Assembly: GCF_021155765.1 (NCBI RefSeq)
Contig: NC_060114.1
Location: 12,243,001 to 12,307,000 of the forward strand
Direction: 5' to 3'
Source of the DNA: Diprion similis
Lineage: Eukaryota > Arthropoda > Insecta > Hymenoptera > Diprionidae
DNA: 64,000 nt
In this document: positions 19,460 through 64,000 of the stretch, one piece after another
How positions within the stretch are numbered: the stretch's first letter is position 1
Layout: each line of letters starts with the position of its first letter
The notes under the pieces: model-generated
Told to the model about the DNA's origin: nothing
Seen by the model: the letters and a program-made list of their open reading frames with translations, nothing else
Database searches by the model: none
Translations under genes and position numbers: made by a program

Positions 19460-20501
19460 CTAATGACGACGACTTTTAAGATGAAGATTAAGAATAGTTC
19501 GTGTTACAAATCCTTTGTTACATTTGATGCAGACATAAGGCCTTTCACCACTGTGATAACGTTTATGAACAACCAATGTTGATCTCTGTGTAAAAGTTTT
19601 ACCACAGTCATCGCAGGTGTGCTTTCTTTCCCCGGAATGGGTAATATTGTGAGTTTTCAACAGACCCATAGATGCAAAACATTTTCCGCACACTTCACAT
19701 GTGAATGGCTTCTCCCCGGTGTGAATTCTTCTGTGTACTTGCATGCTTGCAAGGCTAGTCACCGCCTTGCCACACAAATCGCAGAGGAACAATTGCTTCT
19801 TTCTGCGACAATTTTTTTCACCGTGTTCATCCTGCTTATGCCTATAGTACAATGGTTTATGGGAAAAACTTTGGCCACAAATTTCACAAGAATATTTCTT
19901 CACTGTATTGCTGGAACACATCTCGGGATGCAATGTTCTGACGTGACCCTTGACGTGATCTTTACTTTTAAATGACTTTCCACAAGTCGTGCACGCAAAC
20001 GGTCTAGCAACTTCGTGCGATACCAGATGAGCCTTGAGCTCCCCCTGTGCTATGAATCCCTTCTCACAAATCTCACAAAACACTGAGTAATCTTTCCAAT
20101 GATGTCGTTTCTGGTGAAGGCCGATATTCACCTTGTGCAACGACTTGTAATCGCACTCGTCGCAGCTGTAAACAATCTGGGCTTTGTGAATCTTTACATG
20201 CTGCTTTAGCTGCCGTGGTGTGCTGAAACTACGAGAACATTCATTGCATTCAAATGCCTTCGCAATTCCATGCACTATGTTGAGATGCTCTATCATTCGT
20301 ATTTCATAATTCAGCTCAATATCACAGATGTGACACTTGGTCGACTTTTTCGCATTCTTGGACGTTTCAACTTTTGGCACTGATGTTGCGTTCTCCGGTT
20401 TCTCAATTCTGCTCACAGTCAACTGATTCACAACTACCTCCCCAGCTGCTTCGTCTTCAAGTAGCGCTAACTTCTCATTATTTGCCAGTGGCAAGAAACT
20501 T
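19460..20501 (-). CDS. Zinc-finger cassette V1 (10 C2H2 fingers)
   Basis: Last cassette of the array in transcription order. The acceptor TTTTACAG ends at 20502, and the exon adds 346 residues after the split codon. A linker of about 55 residues (SFLPLANNEKLALLEDE, mildly acidic) leads to ten C2H2 fingers running almost to the stop. The last four have canonical TGEKPF/SGERPY linkers and FTQRSTLVVHKRYH / FVTRTILNLH helices, nearly identical to V2 and V16. The spacer to V2 is only 341 bp. There is no in-exon Met before the fingers in a convincing start context, so it should need an upstream exon. Confidence 0.93.
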
Positions 20502-20781
20502 CTGTAAAACGACAATTACTATCAAACTCATTTGCACTAACATTCAAAATGGTGATAGTTTTGAAAATGCTGGTCCTGTATTTGCGATGTTGTCATTACG
20601 TAGACTGATTGAATAGGGTGGAGGTCAGAAGTTGTTGACAATTTGGATAGAGCTCTACTTAGGGTGTAAGACAAATGACAGCGCGTAGATTTTCGTAACG
20701 TCAGGTCACGATGTCATTGAAACATCAACAGAAAATATAACATAAAAGCTAAAAGATATTCACTACCCTCTAACACCAATT

Positions 20782-20787
20782 TTTATT
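20782..20787 (-). terminator. Poly(A) signal AATAAA, cassette V2
   Basis: Minus-strand AATAAA about 56 nt after the V2 stop and about 280 nt before the V1 acceptor, supporting V2 as a terminal exon. Confidence 0.55.
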
Positions 20788-20842
20788 TAAGTACTCGAAA
20801 TGGAACGCGATCTAAGTGTGTCATCGAGCTTACCTGGTATTG

Positions 20843-22273
20843 TCAGTGACAGGATTTTAGATGAGTATTTAGGACAGTGCGAGTGACAAAACCCTTATTA
20901 CATTTTTGGCAGACATACGGCCGTTCACCAGTGTGATATCTCTTATGCACAACAAGAGTGGATCGTTGGGTAAATGATTTTCCACACTGATCACACGTGT
21001 ATTTTCTTTCACCCGTATGTGTAACGTTATGTGTTCTCAGTAACGTTTCACAAGCAAAGCATTTTCCACATACTTCACAGGTATAAGGTTTTTCACCAGT
21101 ATGACTTCGGTTGTGAATTTGAAAGCCCTTCGCTGTTTTCAACTCTTTTCCACATAGCGCACAGAGATACCTACGCCGGGGTCTTTCATAATTAGGAATA
21201 CCATGAACATCAAGCTTATGTTGCTTCAATACGGATTTAAACTTGTAAGCCATGCCGCAAATCTTGCATTTATGCTTAGAATCTTCAGTTTCGTCCTCTG
21301 CTGGCTGATTGAAATGATACAATCTGTGATGCTCCTTGAGAGATTCAACATCATTGAAGGTAATACTACATCTGTTACATTGTTGATAGTCGATAAAGTT
21401 ATGTATAGCTGTATGCGTTACAAATTGTTCCTCATCCGTAAAAGTTTCACAACATACTTCGCAGTAAAATTTCACTTTTGGCACATGCTGTTTCTTCCTG
21501 TGCCTCTCTAGATCCGCATTCGTAACACATATGAACTTACACTGGTCACAGGAAATATTCTTCGGAGTGTGAGACTTTTTAACATGAGCATTCAGCATGA
21601 ATTGTTGTGCGTATGTTCTCCAGCATGACGTACATTTAAAAGGTTTCTGAATGCCATGCGCTATTCTGAGATGTGCAACTAGCCGTGTTACAAAGTGAAA
21701 TTTTTCATTACAAATTTCACACGCCTTAATGTTGCTCTCTGATCTGAAAATTTACATGAATATAAATAGACTAGGACGCATGTTAAGGAAATTGTAGAGA
21801 AACTAAATACATTTGGACAAGGATTGCTCTAGTATAATGTGAACTATAAGCATAATGCAAACACACGTTCAATTTCAATTTTGAGCATAACAACTAAACG
21901 GTCCGCTTCTCAGTAACCTGATTTTCTTTGCGATTTTCTTTTTTGTATATTTCGATGCAAATGAAATTGGTGTTAGAGCGCAGGTGATGCGCACGACTAA
22001 CTTTTTACTTTCTAAATTAATCTGGAGAATTCTCAATTCTTCTTACACCCTCTGAAAATGATTGAATCCTCAAAATTGCCTACTAAAATTTGTACTGAAG
22101 TATAATGCTAAAGAAGGGTTGCATTTAAAAACCATTTGCAGCCCTGTATTTATCTATTATAAAGATGATGATAGGTTTGTTTTACTTACTTTACTTCGGT
22201 GGAGATAGGGTCGTTCTCGAGCTTCATCTTAAACTCGGTTTCATCAAACTGAATATGATCGGTGGACCACTGG
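20843..22273 (-). CDS. Zinc-finger cassette V2 with its own 84-nt leader exon (10 fingers)
   Basis: Main exon 20843-21743 (acceptor TTTTCAG, phase 2) adds 299 residues with ten fingers and almost no linker: the first finger (CEICNEKF) begins about ten residues in. A preceding exon at 22190-22273 (TTACAG acceptor, GTAAGT donor, phase 2 at both ends, 28 codons) encodes QWSTDHIQFDETEFKMKLEN, an acidic linker that fits the type seen at the start of other cassettes. Joining gives ...STEVK|KSESNIK. The same frame is open upstream to a Met at 22404, so this could instead be an alternative first exon. A strong donor (CAG|GTAAGC) lies 9 nt after the V2 stop codon. Last fingers pair with V1. Confidence 0.88.
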
Positions 22274-22643: not shown

Positions 22644-22660
22644 GGACGGTGATATTTATA

Positions 22661-23573
22661 CTACGACAAAGTAAGATTAGTGCTGTGAGTTTTTTGGTGC
22701 TTCTTGAGGAATGTGTTGGAGACAAATCCTTTCTTGCAAATCAAACATTGATACGGACGTTGCCCAGTGTGGTATCGCATGTGAAATACCAAAGAAGTTC
22801 TCTGCGTGAAGCCTTTGCCACATTGCAAACAAATGTGCGGTTTTTCCCCCGTATGCGTGCGTTGATGTAGTTTTAAATTCTCTCGAGAACTAAAATGTTT
22901 TCCACATATTTCGCAACTGACTGGTTTTTCACCAGTATGCGTCCTTCTGTGTGTTACCAAAACACTTTGGGAGGATACCTGTTTCCCGCAAAAGTCACAG
23001 AGGAAAGTTTTCAAATGTTGTTCTACCCCATGACATGATTTCATATGCCGCATCAAAAGTCTTTTGTATGGAAAATTCATGGAGCAAACGGCACAATTAT
23101 ATCTGTCGACAGTTTGCATCAATTCAGGGTGATTTACTCTTTTATGAACCAGTAAGTTATTTTTATAAGGATAGGACTTTGGACAAAGCTCACAGGCATA
23201 AGGTTTTTTACCAGAGTGAACATTCTTGTGCTCAACATACTCTTTCTTAGAGAGAAAACCCTTGTTGCACAATTCGCATTTATAAGCGTAATCTTTGGCA
23301 TGTCTCCGCCTGTGGTATTCCAAATTCGATTTTTGATTACACGTGTAACTACAGAGGTCGCAACCGAATCTTTTTAGTCCAGTGTGTATTAATTTGTGTC
23401 TCTTGATGTTCATTGGACTACGAAACGCTTTGCCACACTGATCACATTTGAATGCACGTTCAATCCCATGCACATTTTTCAAATGTTCAATGAGTTTGGT
23501 CATGTGAAAAAATCCAGCATCACATTTTCTGCATTCGTGTATTGCTCGTTTGCTTGATTTACTCCATGAACTC
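22661..23573 (-). CDS. Zinc-finger cassette V3 (10 C2H2 fingers)
   Basis: Acceptor CTGTTTCAG, phase 2; 303 residues. Only 13 residues (SSWSKSSKRAIHE) precede the first finger, so nearly the whole product is DNA-binding. Ten fingers: the third (CDLCSYTCNQKSNLEYH) and fifth/sixth have non-canonical linkers, and the last four use TGEKP/TGQRP linkers. The C-terminus is short (STNLTLS). It is closest in layout to V1, V2, V16 and V17. The spacer to V4 is 373 bp, with a weak donor-like site but no open leader frame. Confidence 0.93.
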
Positions 23574-23946: not shown

Positions 23947-25051
23947 TCATTTAGTCTCTGGATAGTTTTTGAATTTGTTGATGCAATCTGCTTCAAACTG
24001 TTTTAATATTTCCTCAATATATAATGGCGGAAGTGGAGGTAACGGCCCTGGGTGTGTCTTTCTATGACAAATCAATCCAGGCTTTTGGGTAAAAGACTTG
24101 CCACAGATATCGCACACATAGGGACGCTGACCAGTATGAGTTAAGATATGCTGCCTTTGAGCACCAGAACGAGCAAAAGATTTCCCACACACAGGGCAAG
24201 GGTAGGGCTTGTCGCCAGTATGTGTTCTCATGTGAACCGCTAGTGAACATTTTTCAGAAAATGTCTTTCCGCACTCTTCGCATATCACTTTTTCATTATG
24301 CCACTGAACATGCTGGTCCAAATTTTCTTGAGATACCATTCGTTTTGGACAAATAGAACATTTAAACTGTGGCTTGTAGTGAGCAAACTTCTGGTGGACC
24401 TTCAAGGTGTGTTTATCAACACATGATCTTCCGCATACGTCGCATACTACAGGTGGGTTCCCGCTGTGATACTTGATCACATGCGTTCTCAGGTCATTTT
24501 TTATTTTATACGCCTTTCCGCATACCTCACAAGAGAAATTGTAAACGTCTGTATGTTTTCTTATGAAGTGGGCCTCAAGAATACGTTTATTCTTGCTGAC
24601 ATAATTGCAGACATTACAAGGATATTCCAACTTAACGTCTTCTTGTGATCCATGTGTCTTCAAATGCAGATCAAAATCAGTCTCATTTTTAAAGGGTTTC
24701 AGGCAAGTTTCACACTTGTATGTATGCATTTTCACGTGTTTAACAAACAGTGTTCGTTTTGCAAATTTAACACAGCAAATCTTGCATGAATACCTTTCAT
24801 CGAGCGACTCAACCTTTTCTCCTCCTGCATGTTCAACCAGTTTCAGTACACCGATATCTTGGGGAACGTTACTGGGTGGCTTTTCATCTGATCTTATCAA
24901 TATATATGATTTTGGCAGCACAACCGCATATTCAGGCGATAAAGGTTTTGGGAGAATCAACTTTGGCTTCGATTGTTTCCGTGTCACGACGGCTTTTGAT
25001 CTCTTCTCTTGATGTTGTTTTCTTAGTAACAGTGGGTCAGGCATAGATATC
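23947..25051 (-). CDS. Zinc-finger cassette V4 (9 C2H2 fingers, PPLP tail)
   Basis: Acceptor TTTTTCTAG, phase 2; 367 residues. A Lys/Pro-rich linker of about 85 residues opens with ISMPDPLLLR. Nine fingers follow; finger 6 is the subfamily marker CSICPKRMVSQENLDQH. The last finger is FTQKPGLICHRKTH, directly followed by HPGPLPPLPPLYIEEILKQF and a short basic end. A Met lies four residues after the acceptor (MPDPL) and could serve as a start in an alternative transcript. Confidence 0.93.
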
Positions 25052-25885: not shown

Positions 25886-26972
25886 TCAATCTTGGACCTC
25901 TTTTGGATGATCTTTTGTATCCCTAGATAAACCCTGGAGAATGCTATCAATATAAACTCTGGGTAGTGGCGGATGAGAACCGGGATGTGATTTTCTATGA
26001 CTGGTGAGCCCTGGTTTCTGGGTGAATGTCTTGCCGCATATGTCGCATACATAGGGTCGTTTTCCAGTGTGAATGAGGAGATGCTGTCTGAGAGTATTTC
26101 TGCGAGCAAACGACTGAGCGCATACGGTGCAGGAGTAAGGTTTAATACCGGTGTGCGATCGCATATGGACTTCCAAGTCGTACGGAATGTGGAACATTTT
26201 ACCACATTGTTCACATACGACTCTCTCCTTGGTTTCGTGCCAGTGAAGGTGCTGCTGAAGCCCTTTTTGCGAGACAAGCCGTCGTTTACAAATTTTACAA
26301 ACATGCTCTGGCTTCTCGTGTATATATTTTATGTGAGACTTCAGTGCGTGTAAATTTTTACTTTCATGACCACAAACTTCACAGACAATAGGTGGATTGC
26401 CACTGTGCATCTGGTTAATGTGTTGTTTTAGATTGTTTTGTATTTTAAATAGTTTACTGCAAAATTTGCACGAGAACTGATAGTTGTCCGTATGTTTTCT
26501 GACGAAATGATCCTTCAACGTCCACTTTTTATTACTCTTGTATTCACATACGCTGCATTCGTACATTTGTGGCCCGTGAATTTCCTCCATATGAATTTTA
26601 AGGTCCCGTTTCAGCGTGAAAGTTTTTGCGCATGTTGTGCATCTGTAAGCATGCTGTTTGATGTGCAATACAAGCTTATTTTTATTAAAATATATTTTTT
26701 TGCATAAGTCACATTGCAATCTTATTCCCTTCTTTGTATTCTTACTTTGATCCAAACTCATATCAGGTATTTCAAAATTCATTTCAGCCTTTCCAAGCAT
26801 TACACTGGGCCTCTTATTACTCTTGTGCTTCTTTTGGTTTTCCATGGTGACCCGATCCATCATCCCAATCATCAATCCCGGTGTGCGCTCATTTTGCAAA
26901 AGGTGCACATTTGTAGCAGAAGACACTCGACATCGTGATAATGGAATGCTCAAGGGATCTGATGGTACCAGT
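25886..26972 (-). CDS. Zinc-finger cassette V5 (9 C2H2 fingers, PPLP tail)
   Basis: Acceptor CTGTTTTAG, phase 2; 361 residues. The linker begins LVPSDPLSIPLSR and is otherwise polar and basic. Nine fingers include the marker finger CKICKRRLVSQKGLQQH and the terminal FTQKPGLTSHRKSH, then HPGSHPPLPRVYIDSILQ. V6 and V7 are its nearest relatives (shared CSVCEYKSN.. third finger and GNPPIVCEVCGHESKNLHALK block). A candidate ATG exon at 27054-27091 ends in a phase-2 GTAAGT donor 81 nt before the acceptor. Confidence 0.93.
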
Positions 26973-28548: not shown

Positions 28549-29632
28549 TTATGTGTTCCCACTCAGATCTGCACTGCTGTTTTTGCCAGCATACTCTCTA
28601 GCGAATTCTGTAATGATGGTCTTAATGGAGACGGCTGGCAGTGGGGGCAAAGGGCCGGGGTGTCTCTTCCTGTGACATATCAAGCCAGGTTTTTGCGCAA
28701 ATGCCTGGCCGCAGATATCACATATGTAGGGTCGTTTCCCCGTGTGAATGAGGACATGTTGTTCCTGAGCAGTCTGACGTCTGAAGGTTTTTCCACAAAC
28801 TAGGCAGGGAAAAGGCTTGATACCTGTATGTACTCGTATATGAGAATCCAAATCACGGCCACGGAATCTTTTCCCACATGTCGGACAAACAATCTTCTCT
28901 TTATTTTCATGCCACGACAAGTGCTGCTTGAGATTCTCCTGCGTTGTCATTCCTCGCTTGCAAATATTACACTCAAACTCAGGTTTGTAGTGGCGATACT
29001 TCATATGTGCTTTGAGGGCATGTAAATTTTTACTAAAATGCCCACAGACGTCGCATACTATGGGAGGATTTCCACTGTGATTTTGTTTCATGTGGTGATT
29101 CAAAGCTTTCTTTATTTTAAACTGCTTGCCACAAGAGTCACAGGAAAAATTAAACGCACTGGTATGAAGGCGAATGAAGTGGTTTTTCAAAGTTCCTTTG
29201 TTGTTACTTTTGTAGTCGCACACACTGCATTCATACAACTGAGGTCTGTGTATTTTTTCAAAGTGTGTACTGAGGTATCGCTTCAAGCTAAAAGTTTTCC
29301 CACATTCTGTGCACTTGTGTCTATGCTGCTTCAGATGCTCTGCTAGATTGCTTTTTTTTTGGAATGTCTTCTGACAGGAATTACATTCGAACGTTTTCTT
29401 TGACCTTGTGACTCTTCTTACTGGCTTACTATTCCTTGTATCCACAATTGTATCTGGCTTTTCGGAAACAGAATCCAAATGTGTTTCCTTACTCAGCAAC
29501 TTAATGTCGTCTCTGGCTGCTTGTTTTTCAGGCCATATCATATACTCAGGAGTGCATTCAATTCTCACTATTTGTCTTTTTTCCAACACCACTCCGTCCG
29601 ATGAAACGCTCAAAGGATCGGCAGTTGATACC
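28549..29632 (-). CDS. Zinc-finger cassette V6 (9 C2H2 fingers, PPLP tail)
   Basis: Acceptor TTGTTCTAG, phase 2; 360 residues. Linker starts VSTADPLSVSSDG and contains RIECTPEYMIW, a block shared with V7. Nine fingers; finger 7 (CPTCGKRFRGRDLDSHIRVH) is one residue shorter than normal between the second Cys and the first His. Last finger FAQKPGLICHRKRH, then HPGPLPPLPAVSIKTIITEF and a polar end. Near twin of V7. Confidence 0.93.
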
Positions 29633-30055: not shown

Positions 30056-31097
30056 TCATTCTGTATCATTGCGATGTCTTTTTACATAATCTCTTGTGAA
30101 GTCGTTGACAATATTTTTGACAGATACGGCAGGCAGTGGTGGTAGAGGGCCAGGGTGCCTTTTTCTATGACATATTAAACCAGGCTTTTGAGCAAAGGTT
30201 AGACCGCAGATATCGCAAAGATATGGACGTTTGCCCATGTGAATCAAAATATGTTGTTCCTGTGCAGTCTGACGTGAAAATGACTTGCCGCAGACGGGAC
30301 AAATAAAAGGCTTGACGCCAGTGTGGATCAGCATATGAACCTCCAATGAATATTTCTCACGAAATGTTTTACCACACGTAGGACAAATCACTCTTTCTTT
30401 GGTCTGATGCCGCAGGATATGCTGATCCAAATACTCTCGAGTCGTCATTCTTCTTTTACAGAGTTTACATTCAAATTGTGGCTTGTGGTGGGCGTATTTT
30501 TTATGGCACTTTAGGGCATGGATGCTCTTATTCGTATGACCGCATATGTCACAAACCAAAGGCGGATTCTCGCTGTGACTCCGGTTTATGTGGGTTTGCA
30601 AGTCGTTCTTGATTTTAAACTCTTTACTACAAACGTTACACGAAAACTTGTATTCCTCTGTGTGCTTCCTGACGAAGTGGTCATGTAGCGACCACTTGTT
30701 ATTACTCACATAGTGACACACAGTGCATGGATATTTTTCTGGCCCGTGTGAGGATGCTACATGTGCTTTCAGTTCATTCCTCGTTTTAAATTTTTCGTTG
30801 CAAGCTTCACAAATGTATTTATGAACACTCATATGCCTGATAAGTTCTTTTTTCAAAGAAAAACTAACGTTGCATGTATCGCAGGAATAACTTGTGTCCA
30901 CTAGAGCGGGTTTCACTAAGATCTTGTTACAAATTCTAGTTGCATTTCTTCTTCTATTCTTCAGATTGTGTGAATTACTTTCACCGTTACGTTTCTTATT
31001 CTTTGCTGTTTTCTCAGCAGTTGCTCGCTTCGATGAGAGTATCACATTCTCAGGGGTGCATTCAATTCTAATAGTGTTGCAAAGCAGATTTGAGATT
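30056..31097 (-). CDS. Zinc-finger cassette V7 (9 C2H2 fingers, PPLP tail)
   Basis: Acceptor GTGTTTTAG, phase 2; 346 residues. Linker carries RIECTPENVILSSKR, as V6, then a basic stretch (KNRRRNATRICNK) that could act in nuclear import. Nine fingers, marker finger CKLCKRRMTTREYLDQH, terminal FAQKPGLICHRKRH, then HPGPLPPLPAVSVKNIVNDF. The spacer to V6 is 423 bp with a GTAAGT donor near 29979 that is not in a usable coding frame. Confidence 0.93.
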
Positions 31098-31763: not shown

Positions 31764-33135
31764 TTAGTCCTGATTGTCCTTTTTAAACTCTGCAAGTTCG
31801 TTGACGATATCACCGATTGGCATCACAGGTAGTGGAGGATGGGTTCCAGGATGAGTTTTTCGATGACATATTAGGCCTGGTTTCTGTGTAAAAGCCTTGC
31901 CACATATGTCGCACACAAATGGTCGCTTTCCAGTGTGAATCAAGAGATGTTGTCGTAGTTGAGATCGACGAGCAAATGGTTTACTACAGATAGGACAGAG
32001 GTGGGGTTTGTTGCCGGTATGAATAGACATGTGCCTCTTAAAAGAGTCTTTTTTGTTGAATGTCTTTCCGCATTCGGCGCACATGATCCTTTCCTTTTTT
32101 TCATGCTGCAGAAGCAAATGTTGGTCTAAATTCTCCTGAGTTACCATTCGTCGTTTGCAAATGTGACACTCAAACTTGGGTTTGTAGTGTGCCCACTTCT
32201 GATGGACGTATAACGAGCCGCTGTTACGGCAGGATTTGCCACACAAATCGCACATTGTAGGTTTCTCTTTATGATGAAACCTGACATGAGTCGTGAGGTC
32301 CCCTTTCACCTTAAACTTTTTGGAACAAAATTTACACGGGTACTCGTAAGAGTCTGTGTGCTTTCGAGTAAAGTGTGACTGCAGAGAATGTTTGGACCTA
32401 CAAACAAATCCACACGCCTCACAGGGAAATAGTAGTGATGATTTGGAGCGTGTTTCGTGTTGTCGCTCAAGATGAGCAATGAATGAAGATTTTTTTGAAC
32501 TCCTGAAATCACATACGGCGCACACATAAGCCCCATTTTCTTCGATGCATACTTTCTTCTTGTGCGTCCACGCGACGTGCTTGCGAAATGCTATTTCCGA
32601 GTCAAAAGTTTTTGAACAAACCTTGCACTTGAGGGATCGTGTGATGAAATCTGGCATCGGAGTAACGTGTTCAGAAAAATACTGAGTGTCGGGTTCTTCT
32701 GACAATTCGTTATCTTGATTTATAGATTCCGTAACATTCTCAGCCAATTTTTCAATAGTGACAGTATTTCCCTCCATCTTTACTTGATATAAGTCACCTA
32801 TTGAGCGGCCGTTTTGAACTTTATCGTCTGCTCTTTCTTCATCACTGAGAACAGAGAGCGGTGATTCTTGATTTTCAGTTACTTCCAACTCAGACTCATT
32901 CTCACTCCCTGGTACAGGCTCATTTGTATAGCTCTCTTCAACAGTGACATTGATATCATTATCAACTTCAGTTGGCTGCTTATCGCTTACGGTTTCAGAG
33001 AAACAGCTCGCAGGGAGAAAGGCGTAACAGGGCTTGTCATCAAATTCGATAATCTGCCACTCTTGCATAATTACAGACTCCTTGCCGAATATAAATATTC
33101 CATGGTGTTTTTCTGTGTCCTTGACTGATAAAAAT
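31764..33135 (-). CDS. Zinc-finger cassette V8 (9 C2H2 fingers, FIFGKES entry, PPLP tail)
   Basis: Acceptor CTGTTTCAG, phase 2; 456 residues. The product opens FLSVKDTEKHHGIFIFGKES, then MQEWQIIEF..CYAFLPAS, a block shared with V9 and V10. An acidic linker to about residue 170 carries VKME, a sumoylation consensus. Nine fingers, including CHICKRRMVTQENLDQH and the terminal FTQKPGLICHRKTH; the tail is HPGTHPPLPVMPIGDIVNEL. The in-exon Met (MQEWQ) is a possible alternative start. Candidate ATG leader exon at 33200-33252. Confidence 0.94.
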
Positions 33136-33774: not shown

Positions 33775-35068
33775 CTATTTTTTCATGAAATCATTTATAA
33801 TATGCTCAATATGAACAACAGGCAAAGGCGGGTGGACACCAGGATGCGATTTCCTATGACAAATTAATCCTGGTTTCTGAGTGAACGCTTTGCCACAAAT
33901 ATCACAAACGTAGGGTCGTTTGCCAGTATGAATTAAAAGATGCTGGCGAAAAGCTGTACGACGAGCAAATGCTTTACCACAAATCGTACACGTGTACGGT
34001 CTATCTCCGGTGTGAGTCATCATGTGCTGTTTCAGCCTGTGATTTTCAGTGAAAGATTTACCGCACTCCTCGCACACAAAGCTTTCTCGTCTTTCGTGCT
34101 GTAGTAAAATATGTTGATCGAGATTAGATTGGGTAACCATGCGACGGTGGCAAATGTGGCACTCGTACTTTGGTTTAAAATGGGCCCATTTTTGATGAAC
34201 GTAAAGAGAGTTACTGTTCGAGCAGGTTTTTCCACAGACATCGCATATTATGGGTCCTTCTTTGTGCTTAAATCTTACATGAAGTCTCATATCACCCTTG
34301 ACTTTGAACTTTTTACCACATATCTCGCAGACGTATTTGTAGTCAGCAGCATGTTTTCTCTCAAGATGTTCCTTCAATCGACGTCTACTCTGGCACTTGA
34401 ATTCGCAGATGTCGCACAAATACTCCTCATGCTCCTTCTTACGTGTTGCATGCTTTCTTGCAATGTGTGAGTGAAGGGTCGTTCTTTTTTTGCATTCAAA
34501 TTTACAATATGTACAGACAAACACAATAGGATCTTTAGTCTTCTTGTGTTCCATATCTACATGCATTTTAAATGCAATCAACGTTTTGCAAGTTTTCGGA
34601 CATACTTTGCATTTGTACTTATGCGCTCGATGGTCGTGAACTTTTGTATTGTGCCTTCTCAGCATGATCTCGAGATCAAAATCTATGTTACACGTGTTGC
34701 ATGAATAGGTACTCTCCAGTTCAACCACACTAGGAATTGCAATCTGTACTCTCGATGGCAATTCGGTATCACTTGAATTACTTTCAACTTTGACTTGGCA
34801 GTAATCACTAGGTTCGTTGAGATCTACGTTTGCGTTGCTTTCCTGATCGTTGCTGATAGGAGTGTCTTCCTTATCTGTCAATAACTTTTGAATATCTTCA
34901 GTTTCCTCATCCAGATTATGTTCTTCTTCGTCGACCGCAACTAAGTCCTTCAAACGATTTGCTGGTAGAAATGCATAATAAAGGCAACCTTCAAATTCTA
35001 CAATTTGCCATGGTTGCATGAAGATCGACTCCTTCCCGAATATAAATCGACCACTGGTGCATATTTCC
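33775..35068 (-). CDS. Zinc-finger cassette V9 (10 C2H2 fingers, FIFGKES entry, PPLP tail)
   Basis: Acceptor GTGTTTTAG, phase 2; 430 residues. Opens EICTSGRFIFGKESIF then MQPWQIVEF..YYAFLPAN. Acidic linker to about residue 122 with VKVE. Ten fingers; compared with V8 there is one extra Cys-rich finger of the FKCQSRRRLKEH kind in the N-terminal half. Marker finger CHICHRRMVTQSNLDQH, terminal FTQKPGLICHRKSH, tail HPGVHPPLPVVHIEHIINDF. V10 is its closest relative. Confidence 0.94.
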
Positions 35069-47966: not shown

Positions 47967-49047
47967 CTGAAACAAAACAAGTCAATCAGTCCTAGTTCTG
48001 ATGGAAAACCATTTCTTCATTGACATTATCTACACAAAACTCTAAGTGAAATAATTGTAATAGATATGAAATAATATATATGGCTGGTAGCAGGATTCGT
48101 AATGTTAGTTGCGTTAGCTTTACTACAAAATTTGGTAATTTCCACTTTCTATGTTCTTATATACTTTAAAATCATATACCAATTGATGGAAAGTCGAATT
48201 GTTTCAGATGGCCTCTAAGTTATTGATAATAGTTAACATAACATTCTGACCTTCTTCAACTCCTATCGTAAATACCATTAAATGCTAGATGGACAGAGTG
48301 CTAGTATTAACAATTAATATATGATATTATATTAGAATTCTGATTTTTCTCCAGAAGATTTGGTTTTCCATGAGGCTAGCCACAGTAATCCTCAGTGCGA
48401 GATGAGTCAAGTACATTGTAGTCCAATACTAGATTCGATGTTTGTCCACCCTTGGAGTCTCCCATGTTTTGCTAGAACTATAAAACAATCAGAACGGACA
48501 GTGTAGTCAAATTTTCCAGATTCAATCACCTTAATCCGGTCTGCAATATTATTTTATAGTGCTTCAAAGGATTTTAGACTATTGGTGACGATAAATTTGA
48601 CCGTGAAATTGCGAGCACAGAAAAACAGAACGTAAACAATGTTAGAATGTTAAGTATTTTCCCATCAATGAAGCAACACTTGTGGACATATTCGATTAAT
48701 GAAGTTTATTCTAAAAATATCAACTGTGTCACAAAATTATATTGAAGTGCCTCTTATTACCACGTGGCATATATCATTTTCACATTTCTCAAATTAAAAC
48801 AATCGTGAATATATTTTTCATATCTTTTCATTGTTGTACGACCATAAATATTGTTTAATGTAAATGTTACATGTACCAGTTAATTTTCCTCAAGCATGTG
48901 AAAGCTCTTAAAAATCTTTTACCTCACTTTTAATACATGTGATGTCATACAATCTGACCAAATTCGATAGTAGAAAGAATAGTCCTCAACGTGTAGCTAC
49001 GCTTATCATGGTATTAACATTATGATTAGTTGTTCTGTGATGGTATC
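47967..49047. other. Spacer V14-psiC
   Basis: AT-rich, about 1.1 kb, no coding signal seen. Confidence 0.4.
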
Positions 49048-50749
49048 CTAATTTTTTGAGATCTCCTTCTCTTCAATATCTTTAACTATTGCGGTGATGT
49101 GAATAGGTGGGGGAGGCGAAAACCTTCCAGGATGACTACGCCTGTGTCGCATCATGCTGGATCTTTGGGTAAAGGCTTCTCCGCATAAATCACACTTGTA
49201 CGGTCTCTCTCCGGTGTGAGTAAGGATATGCGTGCGTAAGCTGCCGTTGCTCTTAAATGGTTTATGACATATGGAGCATATACAAGGCGCCGATTGTCTA
49301 TGCTTGTTGAACATGTGATAGTTGAGCCTCTTCGTGCAGTTGAATTCCATGCCGCATTCGTTGCAAGTGATTCCTTTTTCATGAACCAGCAAATGGTTGC
49401 TTAGATTATGCTCAGATTTGTATATACGCTTGCAAATATTACATTCAAATTTTTGAAAGTCCGTCCGATGTTTTCGCCTGTGAGAGCTCATCGCCGTTCC
49501 ATTTTTGCATGATTTACCACAAATTTCGCACACCAACGAAGGTGCCTCGGTATGAAGAGATTTCAAATGAGTTGAAAGATCGCTCTTTATTTTGAACTGT
49601 TTACTGCACTTATCGCAAGTGAATTGATATTCAGTGTTGTCATGTTTCCTTATACGATGATGCTTCAATGCTTGTTTCGACTTAAATTTAACCTTGCATA
49701 TATCACAAGTGTACGAAAGATTTTCGTCATGACAACTGGCATGCTTACGCTGATCGTATGCAGTTCTGAAGGTTTTTGGACAGTGTTCACATTTAAAAGG
49801 TCTTCGAGTATTGTGGCTTTTAATGTGCCTAGAGAGTTCCATTCTGCACCTAAACTCTCTGTCACATATTATACATTTAAGTTCACTCTGACTGTCCATA
49901 ATGAAGTCTGGCTCAGGCAGCGCATCAGTTGGCTTAAATCTGTGTTGTGAGATAAAATTCTCCCATTCACTATCTTTGTTTAAGTCCTTGTCATCAGCAT
50001 TGGGTGTTTTTTGCAATGCACGCAAGAGTAAACTTTTGGCACCCATGATGAATGGAGGATCAGAAGATTTGGAATCCGTATTAAGTTTCTGGTTCGAAGC
50101 TTTCTGACACTTACTTTCATCCGTAGCCAGCCGACGGCCATCTGCGTTAGATTTTTGTGGCATAGTACGAGAGCGTTTTCTTAGACTAGCCACCGAACAC
50201 AGTGAGCGCGAAGTTTTGGTTTCTGTATCAAGTTTCTGTTGGCTGATGTTCTTACCTTTACAATCTTTCTTGGCGAAGTAATCACCATCTAAATTAGATT
50301 CCTGTGGTGGGGTACAAGAACGTTTATTTGGTCTAGCCTCGACGGATTCTGTATTGAGTTTCTGATGTGTGGTGTTTTTATTGCCATCATTTTCTTTGGC
50401 CAAATGACTTCCATCTGTATTAGCTTCCTCTGTCGGAATACAGGCATGTTCACTCGAACTTGCCTTTACAAATTCGGAACTGTGGGGTTCTTTATCTGTG
50501 TGAGATTTGTGTTGGGAGGCGTTATTACTTTGATCGTCTTCTTTGGCCAATTGAACGTTACCTGTATTAGGGTGTCTGGTTTGTAACCGTGACAAAAGTG
50601 ATTTACTGATTATCACTTTTTTCCCCAAAGTCTTGCTCAATCCATTTGCAATTTGTAGCGCACAAGCAGTTTTAAAGTTAACTCCAAACTTTAGTGGATA
50701 TTCTTCCTCTGGAAGTTTCCGCCGGAATTTAACACGCCAAGAGTTGACC
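49048..50749 (-). CDS. Zinc-finger cassette V14 (9 fingers, long repeat linker)
   Basis: Acceptor ATGTTCTAG, phase 2; 566 residues. The first 290 residues are linker: a basic start (VNSWRVKFRRKLPEEEYPL), then about five degenerate tandem units of 40-50 residues with the core N.DG..LAKE....N.S.QKLNT (residues near 55-280). Nine fingers follow: CNICKRIYKSEHNLSNH at the marker position and terminal FTQRSSMMRHRRSH. Tail HPGRFSPPPPIHITAIVKDI. The Asn/Ser/Lys-rich repeat is likely disordered. Confidence 0.93.
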
Positions 50750-52704: not shown

Positions 52705-53968
52705 TCAAACGCAGGTAGATTTTTGATGGGCTGTAAGATTGCCCTGGCACGAAAAGCCACGATGACATATTTGACATACATAGGGTCGTTCACCGGTATG
52801 ACCACGGCGGTGGATAGTAAGGGTTGATCTCTGGGAGAAGGCTTTGGGACATTGATCGCACTTGTACGGCTTTTCCCCGGTGTGAATGCGACGATGCATG
52901 CGCAAATTTTCCGAGTCTGTGAATCCTTTGCCACAAATGTCGCATACATAAGGTTTCTCTCCTGTGTGTATACGCCGATGCTTTTTTAAATGTTCGGCAC
53001 TGCTGAGGCTTTTGCCGCAGTAATCGCATAGGTACAACTTGGTAGGATTGTGACTCTCCTTGTGCCGAAACAGTGATCGCTTCGTCGCCAATACACGCCC
53101 ACAAATGTCACACGCAGTGCTGGTTACCTTGTTGGCCTTCATCTCCGGATGCATTCGTCTACAATGGGCGGAAAGTTGTCTCCTGAGATAAAACGCACTA
53201 CCGCAGGTGGCACAAGTAAATGGCTTGTCCCCGGAATGAATGTTGTAATGTTCCTGAAGTTCAATCGCCTTTCGAAACCTTTTATCACATTCGTTACACT
53301 TGAATGGAAGGTCTGCTTTGTCCGTGTGCCTAAGCATGTGAATGCTCAAAGCAGCTAGAACCGTTGTCTCGTAGTCACACTCTTTGCACATATAACTTGG
53401 GTAAAAGTGGGTCTTTTCGTGTCTCGTCAAGTCTCGAAATAGTCGAAACTTTTTCGGGCAATGGTTACACGTGAGATCGCCAACAGTGTGCCGCAGTAGA
53501 TGTTTCTGATAGTTACTTTTATGACCGAATACCTTGTTGCAAGTTTTACACAAAAACTCAACGTTATTCTTTTCCTTTTTCACCTTCATTGGTCGACCGA
53601 CATTATTTCGCTTACTGCCAGCATGTTTTTTCATGTGCTTGCGTAGATTCACGTATGTTCGAAACACTCTTCCACATTGATTGCACGTGTTCTTTCTTTT
53701 ACCCTTGTGTTCAATTTCGTGATTATTAAGTAGAGTTTTAGTTTTGAAAAATACGTCACAAGTTTTGCAGTGATACGCCAACGGCATGTCTTCCTCGTCA
53801 TCGTTGGCATCTCGAATTTCTTCCTTGATCGGGCCATTTAATTTTTCCGTGGTCTCATCCAAGTTTTCACCTTTCTGCGCACCTTTTTCCGGTTCGCTCT
53901 TGACCAGATCAAGCTTCGATAGCATTAGCATTCGATAATAGTCCTCGGACAATGGAAGAGACGTAAAT
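52705..53968 (-). CDS. Zinc-finger cassette V15 (12 fingers, last one C2HC)
   Basis: Acceptor CTAATTTCAG, phase 2; 420 residues. The linker has VKSEPEKG and IKEEIRDAND before the first finger near residue 72. Twelve fingers; a block of six with short linkers is followed by a run with TGEKPY linkers (FTDSENLRMH, FSQRSTLTIH). The last unit CQICHRGFSCQGNLTAHQKS ends with Cys in place of His. No PPLP tail. It sits at the border between the PPLP group and the V16-V20 group. Confidence 0.93.
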
Positions 53969-54749: not shown

Positions 54750-54755
54750 TTTATT
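54750..54755 (-). terminator. Poly(A) signal overlapping the V16 stop codon
   Basis: Minus-strand AATAAA shares bases with the TAA stop of V16. Confidence 0.4.
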
Positions 54756-55963
54756 GATTGGTGGGTCGCACTATCGTTATGCTTACAAGGTGAATTTTAT
54801 TATGGGCATTCAATAGAGCCCTCGACACAAATGACCTTGTGCAAAAATTACACTCATAAGGTCTTTGTCCCGTGTGGTATCGTTTGTGAATAACAAGGGT
54901 GGAATGCTGCGTGAAAGATTTTCCACAGGTATCGCAGCTGTATGGTTTTTCTCCAGTGTGCGTTCTCTTATGAACGACCAGGGTTGTGCGTTTGTGAAAA
55001 GCTTTGCCGCACACATCGCATATCAGCGACTTCTCTCCTCCGTGAAGACGCAAATGATCTTGAAGCGAACCTTTAGAAGAAACTGATTTACCGCACAAGT
55101 GGCAGTCAAATTTATTATCACCAGTGTGGGATTTCACGTGAAGCACAAGGGAATTCTTGTAGGCGAATGTTTTACCACAAAATTCACACTGGTGTTTGAT
55201 AGGCTTAAAATTTGGCTCGTGGATCTTCGTGTGACGTGCAAGAGTATGATTGTTAGGAAAGGCCTTTCCGCAACTCTTACACACATGTTCATTAGCTTCG
55301 TGTTTAACATTCATGTGCCCGTGAAGCTCAGCGTTAGTAAAAAAACCTTTGTTGCATATTTTACAGAATTTTGTGTACTTCTCAAAGTGCCTCCTATGAT
55401 GCGTTGCCAGCTGAGATGCTTGGACGAATGATCGACCGCATACATCGCATACGAAATTACGTTCATGAGTGTGAATCCTTCTGTGAACTGCAAGGGTGTT
55501 CGTTCTCTTGAAGGCTTTGCAACATATGTCACATTTGTATGGTCTGGCATCACTGTGAGCCACCAAATGTCCCTCAAATAAATTCTTGGACCTAAAAGTT
55601 TTCTTACAAATCTCGCATTCGTAAGATTTCGCCGAATGGCAAATATCGTTTGAGCATTCAGTTGATAATTCGTACTTGCGGTTCACTTCTATAGTTTCTA
55701 ATGTTGCACCTGTGCCATGTCGTGAGGTCTGCTGGGAATTTTCAAATTCTTCGCAGGTCAAGGCCAAATCATCAGAACTACACTTTTCGGCATTTGTACT
55801 TTGGTCATTATTATTATCCTGCAGTATGTCAGTTCGTACGAAAATTTTTCCCTCAGACTTTACATCGATAACGGCATCGCTGGACCCTGTGATCTCGATG
55901 TGCTGATTTTCCAACATCTCCATAGTGTCTGCGGTCTCAAACTTGGCTATCTTCAGCTTTAAT
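54751..55963 (-). CDS. Zinc-finger cassette V16 (10 C2H2 fingers)
   Basis: Acceptor TTTCCAG, phase 2; 403 residues. Opens LKLKIAKFETADTMEMLENQ; acidic linker with VKSE to about residue 118. Ten fingers, many canonical: TGEKPY linkers, FHKRTTLVVHKRTH, FTQHSTLVIHKRYH, FVSRALLNAH. Very like V1 and V2 in the last four fingers although 33 kb away, so it probably reflects an older duplication than the neighbours. The Met at 55923 (MEMLEN) could be an alternative start. Confidence 0.93.
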
Positions 55964-56864: not shown

Positions 56865-58059
56865 TCAACAACAGGAATTCTGATGTAGTTTTAGCTGTGC
56901 CCCTGAAACGAATCCTTTTGAACAGGTTGCACATTGGTAGGGTCGTGCCCCAGAGTGATATCGTTGGTGAATGACCAAACTTGTCCTTTGAGTGAATGTC
57001 TTAGGGCATATGTCACATTTGTACGGTCGTTCCCCGGTGTGGGTTCTCATGTGAACAGTCATTGTTGACCTCTTTGTGAACCCTTTATTGCAGTAACAGC
57101 AAATTACTGGCTTTTGACCTGTGTGTAATCGTAAATGATCCCGAAGTGAGGCCCGACTACGAACCTTCTTACCGCACGTATCACACGAGTAACTTTTCTC
57201 TCCAGTGTGCTTGCCCACATGAATTTTAAGGGATTTTTGTGTTGCATACATCTTTCCACATATTTCACACTGGTTGGGTTTTTCGGGAATATAATCCGGT
57301 TCGTGGACCTTCAAGTGTTTTTTCAGGGCATTTTTGGAACGAAAAGGTTTATTACATGTTGAGCAAACGTGCGTACTTTCACCATGCTTAGCAAATTTGT
57401 GATACTTATAATCACCCTTTGTATAGAAACCCTTGAGACAATGTTCGCAAGTAAATTCGTACTCTGTGGTATGACGTTTTTTGTGGATTGTCAACTGAGC
57501 TTTCATTTTAAACGCGGTTGGGCAAATGTTACAAGTAAAGTGTTTCTCATTGGAATGAGTGTTACGATGTACTTTTAGTTCGTTTGATCTTTTAAATTTT
57601 TTATCACACAAATCGCAGCTATATTTATATTCCTCACTGTGGACAACTCGATGTTTTCGTAACAATTCTTTGGTAGTGCATATTCTATCGCACTTGTTAC
57701 ATTTCCACTCGCGAACTGGTGCAGTTCTTTTACGAGGTCGTTTTTTGGCCTTCAGTGGATCGACATCATGAATTTTGATCACAGGCTCAGGAGGATCATA
57801 TTCATCCGGAATGGAATCCACGAATACCAAAAATCTCCCACTATTTCTCACATCAAGCTCGGGGCATGAAACATTTTCAGGTACATGTTTTTCAGAATTA
57901 AAATTATCACTTTCATTGGCTATGCTTTTATCCAAGCTGCAGGGTTCTTTCTTAAGTATTGAAGGTTCATTACGAGCCTTTGATCCATCATTTAATTCAC
58001 ACTGCACAAGTTGTGTAGCTGCGTACTCCTCGGGGTTATTCTCTTTGTGTTTTCTTGAC
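56865..58059 (-). CDS. Zinc-finger cassette V17 (10 fingers, last one C2HC)
   Basis: Acceptor CATTTTCAG, phase 2; 397 residues. Opens SRKHKENNPEEYAATQLVQC; mixed-charge linker with KKRPRKRT, a likely nuclear localisation signal, to about residue 125. Ten fingers; the last (CATCSKGFVSGAQLKLHQNS) ends in Cys instead of His. FTQRTSLVIHQRYH precedes it. Order and helices resemble V16 and V3. Confidence 0.93.
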
Positions 58060-58522: not shown

Positions 58523-59750
58523 TTAAGTGGAAACGTGTTGGGACTTCATGTGTAACTTCATGGAGCCCTTCTGAGTAAAACGTTTTGGGCATTTTTCACA
58601 CGCGTAAGGTTTCTCTCCAGTATGGGTGCGATTATGTATGTGTAAATACTTCCGCGCACTGAATGCTTTACCACAAACTTCGCAAACGTGTGGTTTTTCT
58701 CCCGTGTGAATTCTCATGTGAGTTTCAAAGGAGGCCTTGGTCGAGAGACACTTTCCGCACACCTCACATGTCATCAGGTTCTCACCGGAATGTATCTTCG
58801 TATGCGTTCTCAAAGATTTTTTCCATGTACTTTCGAAGTTGCACAACGAGCATTTATATTTCACAGGTTGTTCGTGCGACTTTTTGTGTAATTTCAAATA
58901 AGTCCGACTTAAGAATGTCTCTCCACAAATGTGACATTTGAATGGTTTGTCTCCATCATGTTCCTGCTTCATGTGATTATTCAATGCCTGTATTGCATAA
59001 AAGCCCTTGTTGCAAGTCATGCAAAACATGTTGTACTCCTTGTCGTGCCTACTGAGATGTTGTTTCAGAGAGTGCTTAGATTCCTCCACACAACCGCATA
59101 TATAGCAAACTACTCGTTGGCCATGTATCTTGGTGTGTTTGTGCAATATCGATTTAGTCTTGTAAGATTTTTCGCAAATCAAGCAGGAGAATGGTCGGTC
59201 TTTAAGGTGCATCGCTTTGACATGAAGATCCAGCTTGTCTCTATACCGGAACCATTTGTGACAAACTTGACATGCCATACGAACTCGGTTGACATGTAAT
59301 CTTCGGTGCCGTGAGAACTGTCCTTTTTTTTCAAGTTTCAGTCCACAGAAATCACATTCGTACATTGGCGGGTCAGATGAATCTTGAGAAAAGTAAGTCG
59401 GTTTGTGTGCATTTCTGTGATTGAGTAAATTTTTGGTGTTTGAAAAAGACTGATCGCATAGTCCACATGGTTTCTTGTTTTTGCCACTAGGAATATAGTT
59501 AGCATGAAGGCGCATATGATTGCGCAGGTTTCCTCTCCAGTCCGTCTCAAAGGTACAATGATGGCATTTAAATTTCTGTGGTAAGGCAGCACCATGCACC
59601 TTGGACACGTGTTGCTTCAACGACGGACCTGATTTAAATCCACAGTTGCAGATTGCACATCTAAAAGGTCCCGAAGATCGTACTCGTCTTGCAGCTCGAA
59701 GGAATGAATCCCCATTTCCATTTCTTCCAAATCCCGCGAAAAAATGAAAC
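58523..59750 (-). CDS. Zinc-finger cassette V18 (13 C2H2 fingers)
   Basis: Acceptor AATTCCAG, phase 2; 408 residues. Only about 38 residues (FHFFAGFGRNGNGDSFLRAA and a basic stretch) precede finger 1. Thirteen fingers run to the C-terminus, so almost all of the product is DNA-binding. Finger 7 (CYICGCVEESKHSLKQH) and finger 2 (CHHCTFETDWRGNLRNH) are the atypical ones. The end FSARKYLHIHNRTH, FTQKGSMKLHMKSQH matches V19. Confidence 0.93.
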
Positions 59751-60410: not shown

Positions 60411-61662
60411 TTATTTGTTTCCCTCGATGTGTGACTTGAAGTGAGAATTCATTGATCCTTGTTGCGTGAATCTCTTCTGGCAAATTTTACATTCATAGGG
60501 TCGTTCGCCAGTGTGTGTTCGCTGGTGAACGATGAGATACTTTCTTACGCTGAACGCCTTACCACAAACTTCGCAAATATGAGGTTTTTCCCCCGAGTGT
60601 ATTCGCATGTGAACTTGTAGATAAGTTTTGCTTGATACAGATTTTCCGCAAATCTTACACGTTATTTGATTTTCGCCTGTGTGAATTTTAGAATGAACCT
60701 TAAGAGCAGCCTTCCAAAAGCTCTCAAAGTTACATACAGTGCATTTGTGCTTCTCCCGCTTTCCATGCGACTTCATGTGCATATTTAAATAGGCTGCGCT
60801 TGCGTATGGGGTGTTACATATCTTGCATGCAAACGGTTTCTCCCCTGTATGCGTGAGCAAATGTCGCTCCAATGTCTGATTCGTATAAAACCCTTTCTTA
60901 CAAATTTCGCAAAAAGTGACGTACTCTTGATTGTGTTTTTTTTTATGAAGGCGCAAATCATACCCAGACACTTTCGATATGCCGCATATATCGCAGTTGA
61001 ATCTCTTATTATGCTGTTTTAGATGCGTCTTCAAAAATTCTTCAGTTTTGAAACCCTTTCCACACAATACACATGGAAATGGTCGATCCTCTTGATGGAC
61101 TTTCACCTTGTGCTTCTCCAATTTCTCATCGTCAGAAAAACCCTTATCACATTCTTCACAACGATTCTCTGATGATTCCCTGTCATGATTCTGCCTGTGT
61201 TTTGTGAAAAGAACGCTGTTGCGAATTTTTTTACCACACAGCTCGCACTCGTAGCAGGATGGTTGCGCAGGTAATGAAGTCGACCGGCGCTGCGAGTATT
61301 TTAACCTTCGCTTGCGGCCAGTACTTATCCTTTCAGTTTCAGTTTCTGATTTCACCTCGTCTTCTTTTAAAATAGTAAAGCCATTCTCTAGCTCTGATTC
61401 TAGTCTCAGTTCCAAATTTGTATCTACATCTGAACCTAGATCTGAATCTAGATCTAATTCTGGTTCTGGTTGTAGTCCTGGTTGTGGTTCCGTTTGTATT
61501 TTCGTAACTGTGTCTATAATCTGATGGGTTGTTAACTCGCAATATCTGTCAACGGCACATGCTTGTGTGGAAAATTCTATAAATTCATCCTGGACCAACA
61601 GCTCTTCAGACTCGTCTTTTGTAAGAACAGCCGTAACATCGTTGGCATCATTAAATTCAGAC
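60411..61662 (-). CDS. Zinc-finger cassette V19 (10 C2H2 fingers, acidic linker)
   Basis: Acceptor TATTTACAG, phase 2; 416 residues. The linker of about 145 residues is strongly acidic, with a Pro/Glu to Asp/Leu mini-repeat (QPEPELDLDSDLGSDVD) and VKSETETE, followed by a basic TGRKRRLKYSQRR patch. Ten fingers, the last three FESFWKAALKVH, VSSKTYLQVH and FSVRKYLIVH types plus FTQQGSMNSHFKSH. A candidate ATG leader exon lies at 62098-62159. Confidence 0.93.
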
Positions 61663-63099
61663 CTGTAAATAATAACAGTTGTCAATTTTTGTGTCCTCAA
61701 ACTTGAGGAAATGTTAAAACAAAAAACTCCAAAAAAGTACTCGATAAAATCAGCATCAAAGTTTACAAAATTTCATTGAAATATTATTCTGTTCATCTCA
61801 CCACATAACTTTCGGTAATTAGGCTATTATTTCATCAATCATGCACCTATTAAAGAACCGAGGACGACGACGACGCTGATGATGAGACCTTACTTACTAA
61901 TTGTTTAAAGATAAAAATGAATGGAGCCAAGAAGTTGTAAAGTGACTCATAAGTGCTTACAAGATTGCAATTAGAATGACGGAGTGAAATGATATAAGGT
62001 ACCACACGTTAATAAATTGAAAATTTCGGAGCTATTAGAAGATTTCTTTAATCAGTAGTGTCGCAATCAAGAAGAAATGACAAGACACTCAACTCACTCA
62101 CAATCAGTTGCGCTGAATGCACTATATCTGTGTTTGAAACTTTTGATACTGTTTTCCATATGATTTGGATTGTCAATGACGCATTTTTTGTGTGAAGTAT
62201 ATTTATTTCTACATATCCGAGTAAACAAGTACATATTTTCAACAGAATGTTGAGAAAAGGTCGCATCATAGGATTATATAAAAATACTTAAATTTAAGTG
62301 AGCAATTACTTATAGGTATAATACTCATATACTCGATGGAAATATTTCACAAGTTGTTTGTACGAAGATCGGTCGAGTCCCTTCACTGGACTCGACAGGA
62401 ACAACTTTCTATGTATACATAGAGATTAAAAAAATAAACATCATGTAATACAATATTGTAGTATCCAATATTGTCGTAGGAAATAAGTAAACCGGTATTA
62501 CTAGAATTCAAAACCAATAAATTTCTTGTATACACATGCATTGCACCAGCTTAACTGACTCGTGTAGCATTCAAATAAATTCTAAGGAATGATCAATAAA
62601 TTATACAAAAAATAAAACTTCACGATGTAATGAGCTCGGAATTAGATTGATATTTGTTTTCTACTTTTTCCTTGGATGTTTGTATATTTTCGTTAAATAT
62701 AAGGAAAACACGGTGGCCATCTACCAATAAATTTTTTGAGTTGAACAACCCTCAAAATAATCATAGGATTATGTCTTTCATTTTCCATTTTATATTAACT
62801 AATCACAAAATTTAATATACCTGTGTGTACACGAATGTCTAAACTAATGGGTCAAATGACGTATTCCAATGAGACTGAAGTTAGTAACGTTGACGTAACG
62901 AAACATCAGGGAAAAAATCATCATTGCGCAGTTTCAGAATGACTATCAAGGATTTGGTTTTGCAAAATAGGTGTATATTTTATTCAACATGATTTACTAA
63001 ATTTCAGACATTTTGAAGGTTCGTGGTATCGATTTTTTCTAAATACGCATCGTTGCATCGACAACTTTATTCTCATGCATTCCATCCATGTCATGATTA
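61663..63099. other. Spacer V20-V19
   Basis: AT-rich, 1.4 kb. Holds the candidate V19 leader and strong donor-like sites (GTAAGT at about 61891, GTGAGT at 62097). No finger remnant seen. Confidence 0.45.
62098..62159 (-). other. Candidate short first exon for V19
   Basis: ATG at 62159 opens a 20-codon frame, MENSIKSFKHRYSAFSATDC, that ends at TGTGA|GTGAGT in phase 2, matching the V19 acceptor. A second donor 4 nt earlier would be in phase 1. Confidence 0.3.
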
Positions 63100-64000
63100 T
63101 TATTCTCCACCTTTGTGCATGAGTTTGAGATGAATTACAAGCTTTCGTCGCAGATTGAATTTCTCGTTGCAAATTGCACACTCGAGTCGTCTATAAGTGT
63201 GAGTTTTTTGGTGCTGGACCAAAGATCGTCGAGAGCGAACGACTTTGTTGCAATATTGGCAAACTTCTGATTTATCATTAGTGTGACTACGCATGTGAAT
63301 TTTCATATAATTTTTACGGATAAGCTTCCCACACACCTCACACGATATATGTGCTTCCCCGGTGTGAGACGACATGTGTAGTTTAAAACTGTGTTTGTAA
63401 AATGTTTGAAAATTGCAAGTTTCGCAGATGAACTTCCGCCTTGTTTCTGACTCATGTTGCAACTTTTCGTGACTATTGAGGTAGAATTGATTGTGAAATG
63501 ATTTTTTACAAACTTTGCAAACATAAGGCCTTTTGTCTGCATGAGTGGTCATGTGGAGCTGCAGTGGCCACTTACCATAAAATCCCTTGTTACATATCTT
63601 ACAGAATTCCGTGAACTCCTTATTGTGTCTTCTGACATGCACTTTTAAATAGTGCTGTGACCTAGACTTATAACCACATATGTGACAAATGTGTATTGCG
63701 CTGTGCAAATCTATGTGCACTTTCAAGTACTTAGACTTTTTAAATGTCTTGCAGCACATGGGACAGGGTAGGCGATCGGAGAAATTCGAATCAGTTTTTG
63801 ATTGATTTTCAGCCTGACTTTTTGGTAATATACTGATCATGTGGTAGTTCTGACCCAAGCTTGGTGGTTTATCTAAATCAAAACTATGTGAAGAAGGTTG
63901 CGATTTGTCTGCACAGGCAATTAGGTTGATGCTTGATTTAGTTTCCTCTACATGTGCAAGATTTTTTTTGCTAGATAAAAGTGGCATTTCCGTCAAGTTC
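63100..64000 (-). CDS. Zinc-finger cassette V20, partial at window end (8 fingers visible)
   Basis: Frame open to the window edge, so its acceptor lies just outside. Visible product about 300 residues: a polar linker (LLSSKKNLAHVEETKSSINL onward) of about 105 residues, then eight fingers. Fingers 5 and 6 (CETCNFQTFYKHSFKLH; CEVCGKLIRKNYMKIH, one residue short) match the V18/V19 layout, but the series stops earlier, lacking two or three C-terminal fingers of its relatives. First cassette in transcription order within the window. Confidence 0.9.
   Translation of the reverse strand, partial: NLTEMPLLSSKKNLAHVEETKSSINLIACADKSQPSSHSFDLDKPPSLGQNYHMISILPKSQAENQSKTDSNFSDRLPCPMCCKTFKKSKYLKVHIDLHSAIHICHICGYKSRSQHYLKVHVRRHNKEFTEFCKICNKGFYGKWPLQLHMTTHADKRPYVCKVCKKSFHNQFYLNSHEKLQHESETRRKFICETCNFQTFYKHSFKLHMSSHTGEAHISCEVCGKLIRKNYMKIHMRSHTNDKSEVCQYCNKVVRSRRSLVQHQKTHTYRRLECAICNEKFNLRRKLVIHLKLMHKGGE

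Follow-up and report, generated by a model that had tools for sequence, protein, structure and literature searches.

A probable ZAD gene with about 23 alternative multi-finger terminal exons in Diprion similis (Hymenoptera)

What kind of gene lies behind a long, one-strand series of C2H2 zinc-finger arrays which each end in a stop codon, and could a single N-terminal domain serve all of them? The question is raised by a 64,000-nucleotide stretch of the genome of Diprion similis (Hymenoptera: Diprionidae; RefSeq assembly GCF_021155765.1, 269 Mb in 60 contigs), which covers positions 12,243,001 to 12,307,000 of contig NC_060114.1 (C10:12243001-12307000 in our numbering) and is referred to here as the window. 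The first-pass annotation of the window had proposed a gene which swaps whole multi-finger DNA-binding domains at its 3' end, and had predicted a constant exon on the minus strand to the right of position 64000. We took in a further 20 kb of the contig on the left of the window and 100 kb on its right and examined the sequence in all six reading frames (coordinates above 64000 are on the scale of the window, i.e. contig position minus 12243000), and we find that the locus is very probably a single ZAD gene whose 3'-terminal exons, about 23 in number, are alternatives to one another and each encode a whole multi-finger domain.

Between positions 19460 and 63999, the minus strand holds 20 stop-to-stop frames of 299–633 codons in the list of open reading frames of at least 150 codons, and C2H2 fingers are present in all 20; there are no frames of at least 150 codons on the plus strand of the same interval. 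This confirms the earlier description of 20 one-strand C2H2 cassettes at 19460–64000, with the qualification that the twentieth (K4) is cut by the edge of the window, the whole frame reaching 65940 with 946 codons. To the right of the window are three extra cassettes (K1–K3), the outermost of which starts at 74712, making a total of 23, and the locus extends past the window end to about 79428, giving the putative gene a span of about 60 kb (79428 down to 19460). Together, the 23 cassettes encode 226 fingers, with 8–15 in each complete cassette when the motif matches do not overlap, and the range of 8–16 first given for them is a fair one, as the largest has 16 if overlapping matches are counted.

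The predicted minus-strand constant exon was also found and is of the ZAD type, though in the form of four small exons (A–D) on the same strand as the cassettes and beyond K1 (79428–77309), the last of which ends in a phase-2 donor and precedes the first cassette by 2.6 kb. These exons join in compatible phases (0, 0, 1, 2) to give an open coding sequence of 845 nt in which the linker of exons C and D is of low complexity. The joined protein matches the zf-AD family (PF07776) at 47.6 bits (cut-off 28, E 2e-12, profile positions 1–73 of 75). At E 0.01 it has no match to BTB or any further Pfam family, and exons A and B show weak matches (E 0.005–0.19) to the solved ZADs 7pok, 6fp5 and 1pzw. The ZAD is defined by four zinc-binding cysteines (PMC9810180), and these are provided, as judged by eye, by CRLC and CDDC. 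The exons joined in silico therefore have the ZAD expected of a ZAD zinc-finger (ZAD-ZNF) protein, and a C-terminal C2H2 array is predicted to be joinable in frame to it, within the same protein, in all 23 cases.

When exons A–D are joined in silico to each cassette in turn, all 23 products stay open up to a single stop at their end, and the codon formed at the junction always specifies glycine, since the donor contributes GG. Every cassette has an acceptor-like site and a terminal stop, as the first-pass annotation had claimed, the site being in the matching phase, and at the DNA level a shared 5' unit followed by many 3' exons in one phase is seen for all 23; the constant unit and the open joins support, at this level, the proposal of a shared N-terminal exon with swapped multi-finger ends. 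We scored every AG from the start of the open frame to the first finger using a simple scoring matrix, and the best-scored AG leaves one lead base, as is required by the phase-2 donor of exon D, in 21 of the 23 cassettes. In the two exceptions, the matching site is joint best (K11) or second (K10, 2.7 vs 2.9). A poly(A) hexamer is found within 600 nt in 22 of the cassettes.

It is the open leaders and the absent start codons, and not the phase statistic, on which the main argument rests. There is no in-frame methionine (Met) between the acceptor and the first finger in eight of the cassettes (K3, K5, K6, K7, K17, K21, K22 and K23), and these could not produce a full finger array from an ATG within the exon. 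Summed over all 23, the stretches from the acceptor to the first Met or finger comprise 1,010 codons with zero stops, which has a probability of 10^-28.9 at the gap stop rate of 0.0637 per codon. Upstream of the acceptor, the frame closes after a mean of 12.1 codons (the non-coding expectation is 14.7). Given these open leaders and the early closure upstream, coding starts at about the acceptor.

The constant unit is a single one in the sequences searched. A genome-wide zf-AD search, in which exons were scored singly and exon A is absent from the listing, placed two ZADs near the window, these being exon B and a gene on the opposite strand at 1185–1487, and there is no second ZAD unit in the extended 184 kb besides this plus-strand neighbour, which has one finger exon. 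A tblastn search of the same 184 kb with exons A–D returned the exons themselves, the neighbour, and otherwise short matches with E ≥0.2. The first-pass claim that no constant-domain exon lies between the cassettes holds as searched, with neither a ZAD nor a repeated peptide in the gaps: an all-against-all comparison of 616 gap peptides of at least 18 residues, with the stretch of a decayed cassette omitted, gave five short weak matches (E 0.006–0.042) and no repeated exon. There was also no convincing second copy of exons B–D (queried without exon A) in the 269-Mb genome, where the next best matches were other ZADs at E 0.07.

The array was similarly compared with other finger-bearing loci. 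With K18 as the query, and among the 112 of 324 candidates scored, the top 15 matches (self included) are all in this locus, as are 17 of the 21 matches at E ≤1e-20. We inspected 30 of the 53 ZAD matches with 1.5-kb flanks, which are too short to rule out further arrays, and found 14 with one frame of at least three fingers and none with two. Two further loci have an architecture unlike that of the array: L052 (C4:24793001-24803000) has twelve small finger-bearing frames on one strand and is probably one multi-exon gene, and the zinc-finger-rich L053 has two frames with 4–5 fingers. The K15 frame had no match among viral contigs and one weak partial match among microbial contigs, to a rumen metagenome-assembled genome (36%, residues 335–408, E 6e-5), though these microbial and viral collections are uninformative on insects.

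A number of observations weigh against a single gene with alternative terminal exons. Under a strict acceptor filter, 13 of the 23 cassettes have a site in the matching phase, two have a site only in another phase and eight have none, and in six cassettes some AG deeper in the exon outscores the acceptor used. The acceptor phase common to the cassettes may have been inherited by duplication, so that the binomial value for agreement in 21 of 23 (1.1e-8, assuming an independence that the cassettes do not have) is not independent proof, and the phase match with exon D taken by itself is about a one-in-three coincidence test. Exons B and C have weak donors, exon B scored singly in the genome-wide search gives 23.9 bits and is under the zf-AD cut-off, and poly(A) hexamers within 400 nt are only in slight excess (19 of 23, compared with a mean of 15.0 and a maximum of 21 in shuffles). 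The joining of exon D to the cassettes is itself something we infer from DNA alone, and 15 of the 23 cassettes do have an in-frame Met ahead of the first finger. This last observation would also suit a tandem series of independent zinc-finger genes that have individual promoters and 5' exons and of which only one or a few use the ZAD exons; the Drosophila cucoid clade, with its clusters of separate ZAD-ZNF genes (PMC9810180), offers a precedent for such a series. Cassette-specific short first exons would be compatible with the DNA evidence, but we rejected separate genes as the principal explanation and consider them very improbable, because an acceptor-like site in the phase needed by exon D is present in each of the 23 cassettes, eight lack any start codon from the acceptor to the fingers, the 1,010 codons preceding any Met are free of stops, and the gaps were searched without finding a ZAD or other shared exon.

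A mixed locus, in which most cassettes are alternative terminal exons and a few also or only produce short ZAD-less proteins from internal promoters, is unlikely but deserves some weight, as in five cassettes (K20, K1, K9, K2 and K8) an in-frame Met occurs no more than 15 codons from the acceptor; against it, the stretches before these are likewise stop-free, though short. The same architecture could also be used in another way, with a separate promoter driving each cassette and trans-splicing linking the products to the ZAD exons, as in mod(mdg4) and lola. The distances from exon D to the cassettes (2.6–57 kb, with many acceptors in series) and the precedents described for lola (PMC1947980) and mod(mdg4) (PMC4667647) speak for this, but all 23 cassettes are on the same strand as the constant exons and downstream of them, so cis-splicing suffices and trans-splicing is not needed for the array, and the whole array is on one strand with no opposite-strand cassettes of the mod(mdg4) kind. 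We regard joining in trans as improbable. An assembly artefact was ruled out, since the cassettes are strongly diverged (the best match of each is 37–57% identical) and all 23 are open.

If the locus is one gene, as we favour, its protein would begin with a single ZAD, from exons A and B, followed by a linker from exons C and D, and the phase-2 donor of exon D would be spliced to one of the 23 alternative terminal exons, which would supply its own leader, a complete array of 8–15 C2H2 fingers and the stop. The exon might be chosen by splice-site and poly(A)-site selection in one pre-mRNA or by trans-splicing, and the outcome would be about 23 proteins with a common ZAD and different DNA specificities. 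One constant unit would then serve all of these specificities, with whole DNA-binding domains swapped behind a single ZAD, and this bears on the diversification of insect transcription factors and on splice choice among 23 terminal exons over 57 kb. The ZAD can drive dimerisation (PMC9810180) and, were this the case for the array gene, any two isoforms could form a pair. A full combinatorial repertoire, in which the 23 isoforms pair via the ZAD, recognise composite DNA targets and are subject to cell-type-specific exon choice, is possible and we put it forward tentatively; if true, up to 23 homodimers and 253 heterodimers would come from one gene, and duplication of exons would provide a route to the diversity that flies gained by duplicating whole ZAD-ZNF genes.

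The finger residues are in keeping with different specificities. Helix positions -1, 2, 3 and 6 show 209 different residue sets among the 226 fingers, and the cassettes should therefore differ in DNA target. The contact residues of the last finger are Q-P-G-C in K15–K18 and K20 and Q-P-G-S in K14 and K19, and given these like last fingers, the target sites of related cassettes may be the same in part. There is no clear sign of arms-race finger evolution in 12 close pairs, which are non-independent and too diverged for a comparison of non-synonymous and synonymous rates (dN/dS). Identity at contact positions is 0.41 (175 of 428 cells), compared with 0.43 (275 of 642) for other variable finger positions, with contact identity lower in eight pairs, equal in one and higher in three, which gives no clear sign that contact positions change faster than other variable positions.

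The order of the cassettes retains a record of their origin. The best-matching cassette is a neighbour in 17 of 23 cases (2.0 in shuffled orders), and a tree separates K10–K20 from K1–K9 plus K21–K23 with full support, with 8 of the 20 inner branches well supported and the finer placings unsure on account of long branches. Because best matches are mostly neighbours and the tree has two groups, the array arose long ago via repeated local duplication of a terminal exon. Between K10 and K11 lies a decayed 24th copy, which is interrupted by an in-frame stop and whose homology is spread across different frames; it illustrates the effect of lost constraint, and it suggests that copies not under selection fall into decay and that the 23 intact cassettes have been retained.

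The ZAD-ZNF gene at the other end of the window (1086–4115, plus strand) has one ZAD at 1185–1487 (50.9 bits) and one finger exon, a single frame holding 10–12 fingers according to the motif used. An intron apparently interrupts its ZAD at a position matching that in the array gene (ACLPVQ/ISMTD in the neighbour, ACLPVK/VARED in the array gene), and the two ZADs are 52% identical in the first half and 32% in the second. The neighbour differs from the array gene in having a single finger exon instead of 23 cassettes, and this gene at 1.1–4.1 kb could be a relative of the array ancestor. Beyond the constant exons, a gene with a DNA polymerase lambda-type fingers domain lies from 82139 onward on the plus strand, opposite to the array, and an NUP210-like gene lies further to the right.

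Table 1. Positions of the constant exons and finger cassettes on the scale of the window, listed in the direction of the minus strand.
Feature	Position	Strand	Fingers	Remarks
Exon A (coding part)	79428-79297	-		ATG and first ZAD half
Exon B	78838-78665	-		second ZAD half
Exon C	78030-77676	-		linker, glutamine/proline-rich then acidic
Exon D	77492-77309	-		further linker; donor CTGG/gtgagt, phase 2
K1	73716-74712	-		outside window
K2	70791-71844	-		outside window
K3	67190-68375	-		outside window; no in-frame Met ahead of fingers
K4	63100-65878 (63100-64000 inside window)	-	9 (in whole)	leader of 410 residues
K5	60411-61662	-	10	no in-frame Met ahead of fingers
K6	58523-59750	-	13	no in-frame Met ahead of fingers
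K7	56865-58059	-	10	no in-frame Met ahead of fingers
K8	54751-55963	-	10	
K9	52705-53968	-	12	
K10	49048-50749	-	9	leader of 292 residues; acceptor used is second by score
Decayed cassette, between K10 and K11	46887-47967 (approximate)	-		in-frame stop; homology across frames
K11	44951-46052	-	9	acceptor used is joint best by score
K12	40256-41393	-	9	
K13	38448-39726	-	9	
K14	35913-37794	-	15	
K15	33775-35068	-	10	
K16	31764-33135	-	9	
K17	30056-31097	-	9	no in-frame Met from acceptor to fingers
K18	28549-29632	-	8	
K19	25886-26972	-	9	
K20	23947-25051	-	9	
K21	22661-23573	-	10	no in-frame Met ahead of fingers
K22	20843-21743	-	10	finger 1 at 8 codons past acceptor; no in-frame Met before
K23 (last)	19460-20501	-	10	no in-frame Met ahead of fingers

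We also note, by eye, some features of the cassettes outside of the fingers. The leaders of K4 (64650–65878) and K10 (49875–50749) seem to contain degenerate internal repeats before the fingers. Those of K11 and K14–K20 include motifs common to neighbours, e.g. GRFIFGKES in K15 with similar stretches in K14 and K16, and RIECTPE in K17 and K18, and these same cassettes have a proline-rich tail after the last finger.

Three known systems bear comparison with the array gene. In the Drosophila lola gene, common N-terminal exons are combined with any of about 20 C-terminal ones, of which most encode zinc fingers, and both trans- and cis-splicing have been reported for it (PMC1947980). The array gene would have the same plan of shared 5' exons and many alternative 3' ends, but lola encodes a BTB domain and mostly "one or more" fingers per isoform, whereas the array gene has a ZAD and 8–15 fingers per exon. 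The isoforms of mod(mdg4), at least 31 in number, have one 5' exon in common and differ in their 3' variable exons; this gene is known from Drosophila, Lepidoptera and others, and two Hymenoptera have canonical cis-spliced homologues (PMC4667647). Here too the likeness is in a common 5' unit with many variable 3' exons, and the difference in the domains (BTB and FLYWCH, compared with C2H2 arrays) and in some opposite-strand, trans-spliced exons where the array gene keeps to one strand.

The culicine cucoid resembles the array gene in being a ZAD-ZNF gene with alternative 3' ends, of which there are three, but these isoforms differ in the number of five fingers that are kept (PMC9810180, PMC6783274) and so drop fingers, whereas each cassette of the array gene carries a different array of at least eight. 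The Drosophila cucoid clade of 27 genes expanded by whole-gene duplication, and that account reports no cucoid orthologues found outside of Diptera, fleas and Lepidoptera (PMC9810180). Our literature search, which covered titles and the openings of abstracts, gave no ZAD gene with swapped multi-finger 3' exons among the matches listed, and the excerpts of PMC7655104, PMC4327956 and PMC5701548 have nothing on a ZAD gene with swapped finger exons, though automated annotation of insect genomes may already list such isoforms. As read here, the array gene follows the working plan of lola and mod(mdg4) without belonging with them, having a ZAD instead of a BTB domain, and whole multi-finger arrays seem to be swapped behind that ZAD.

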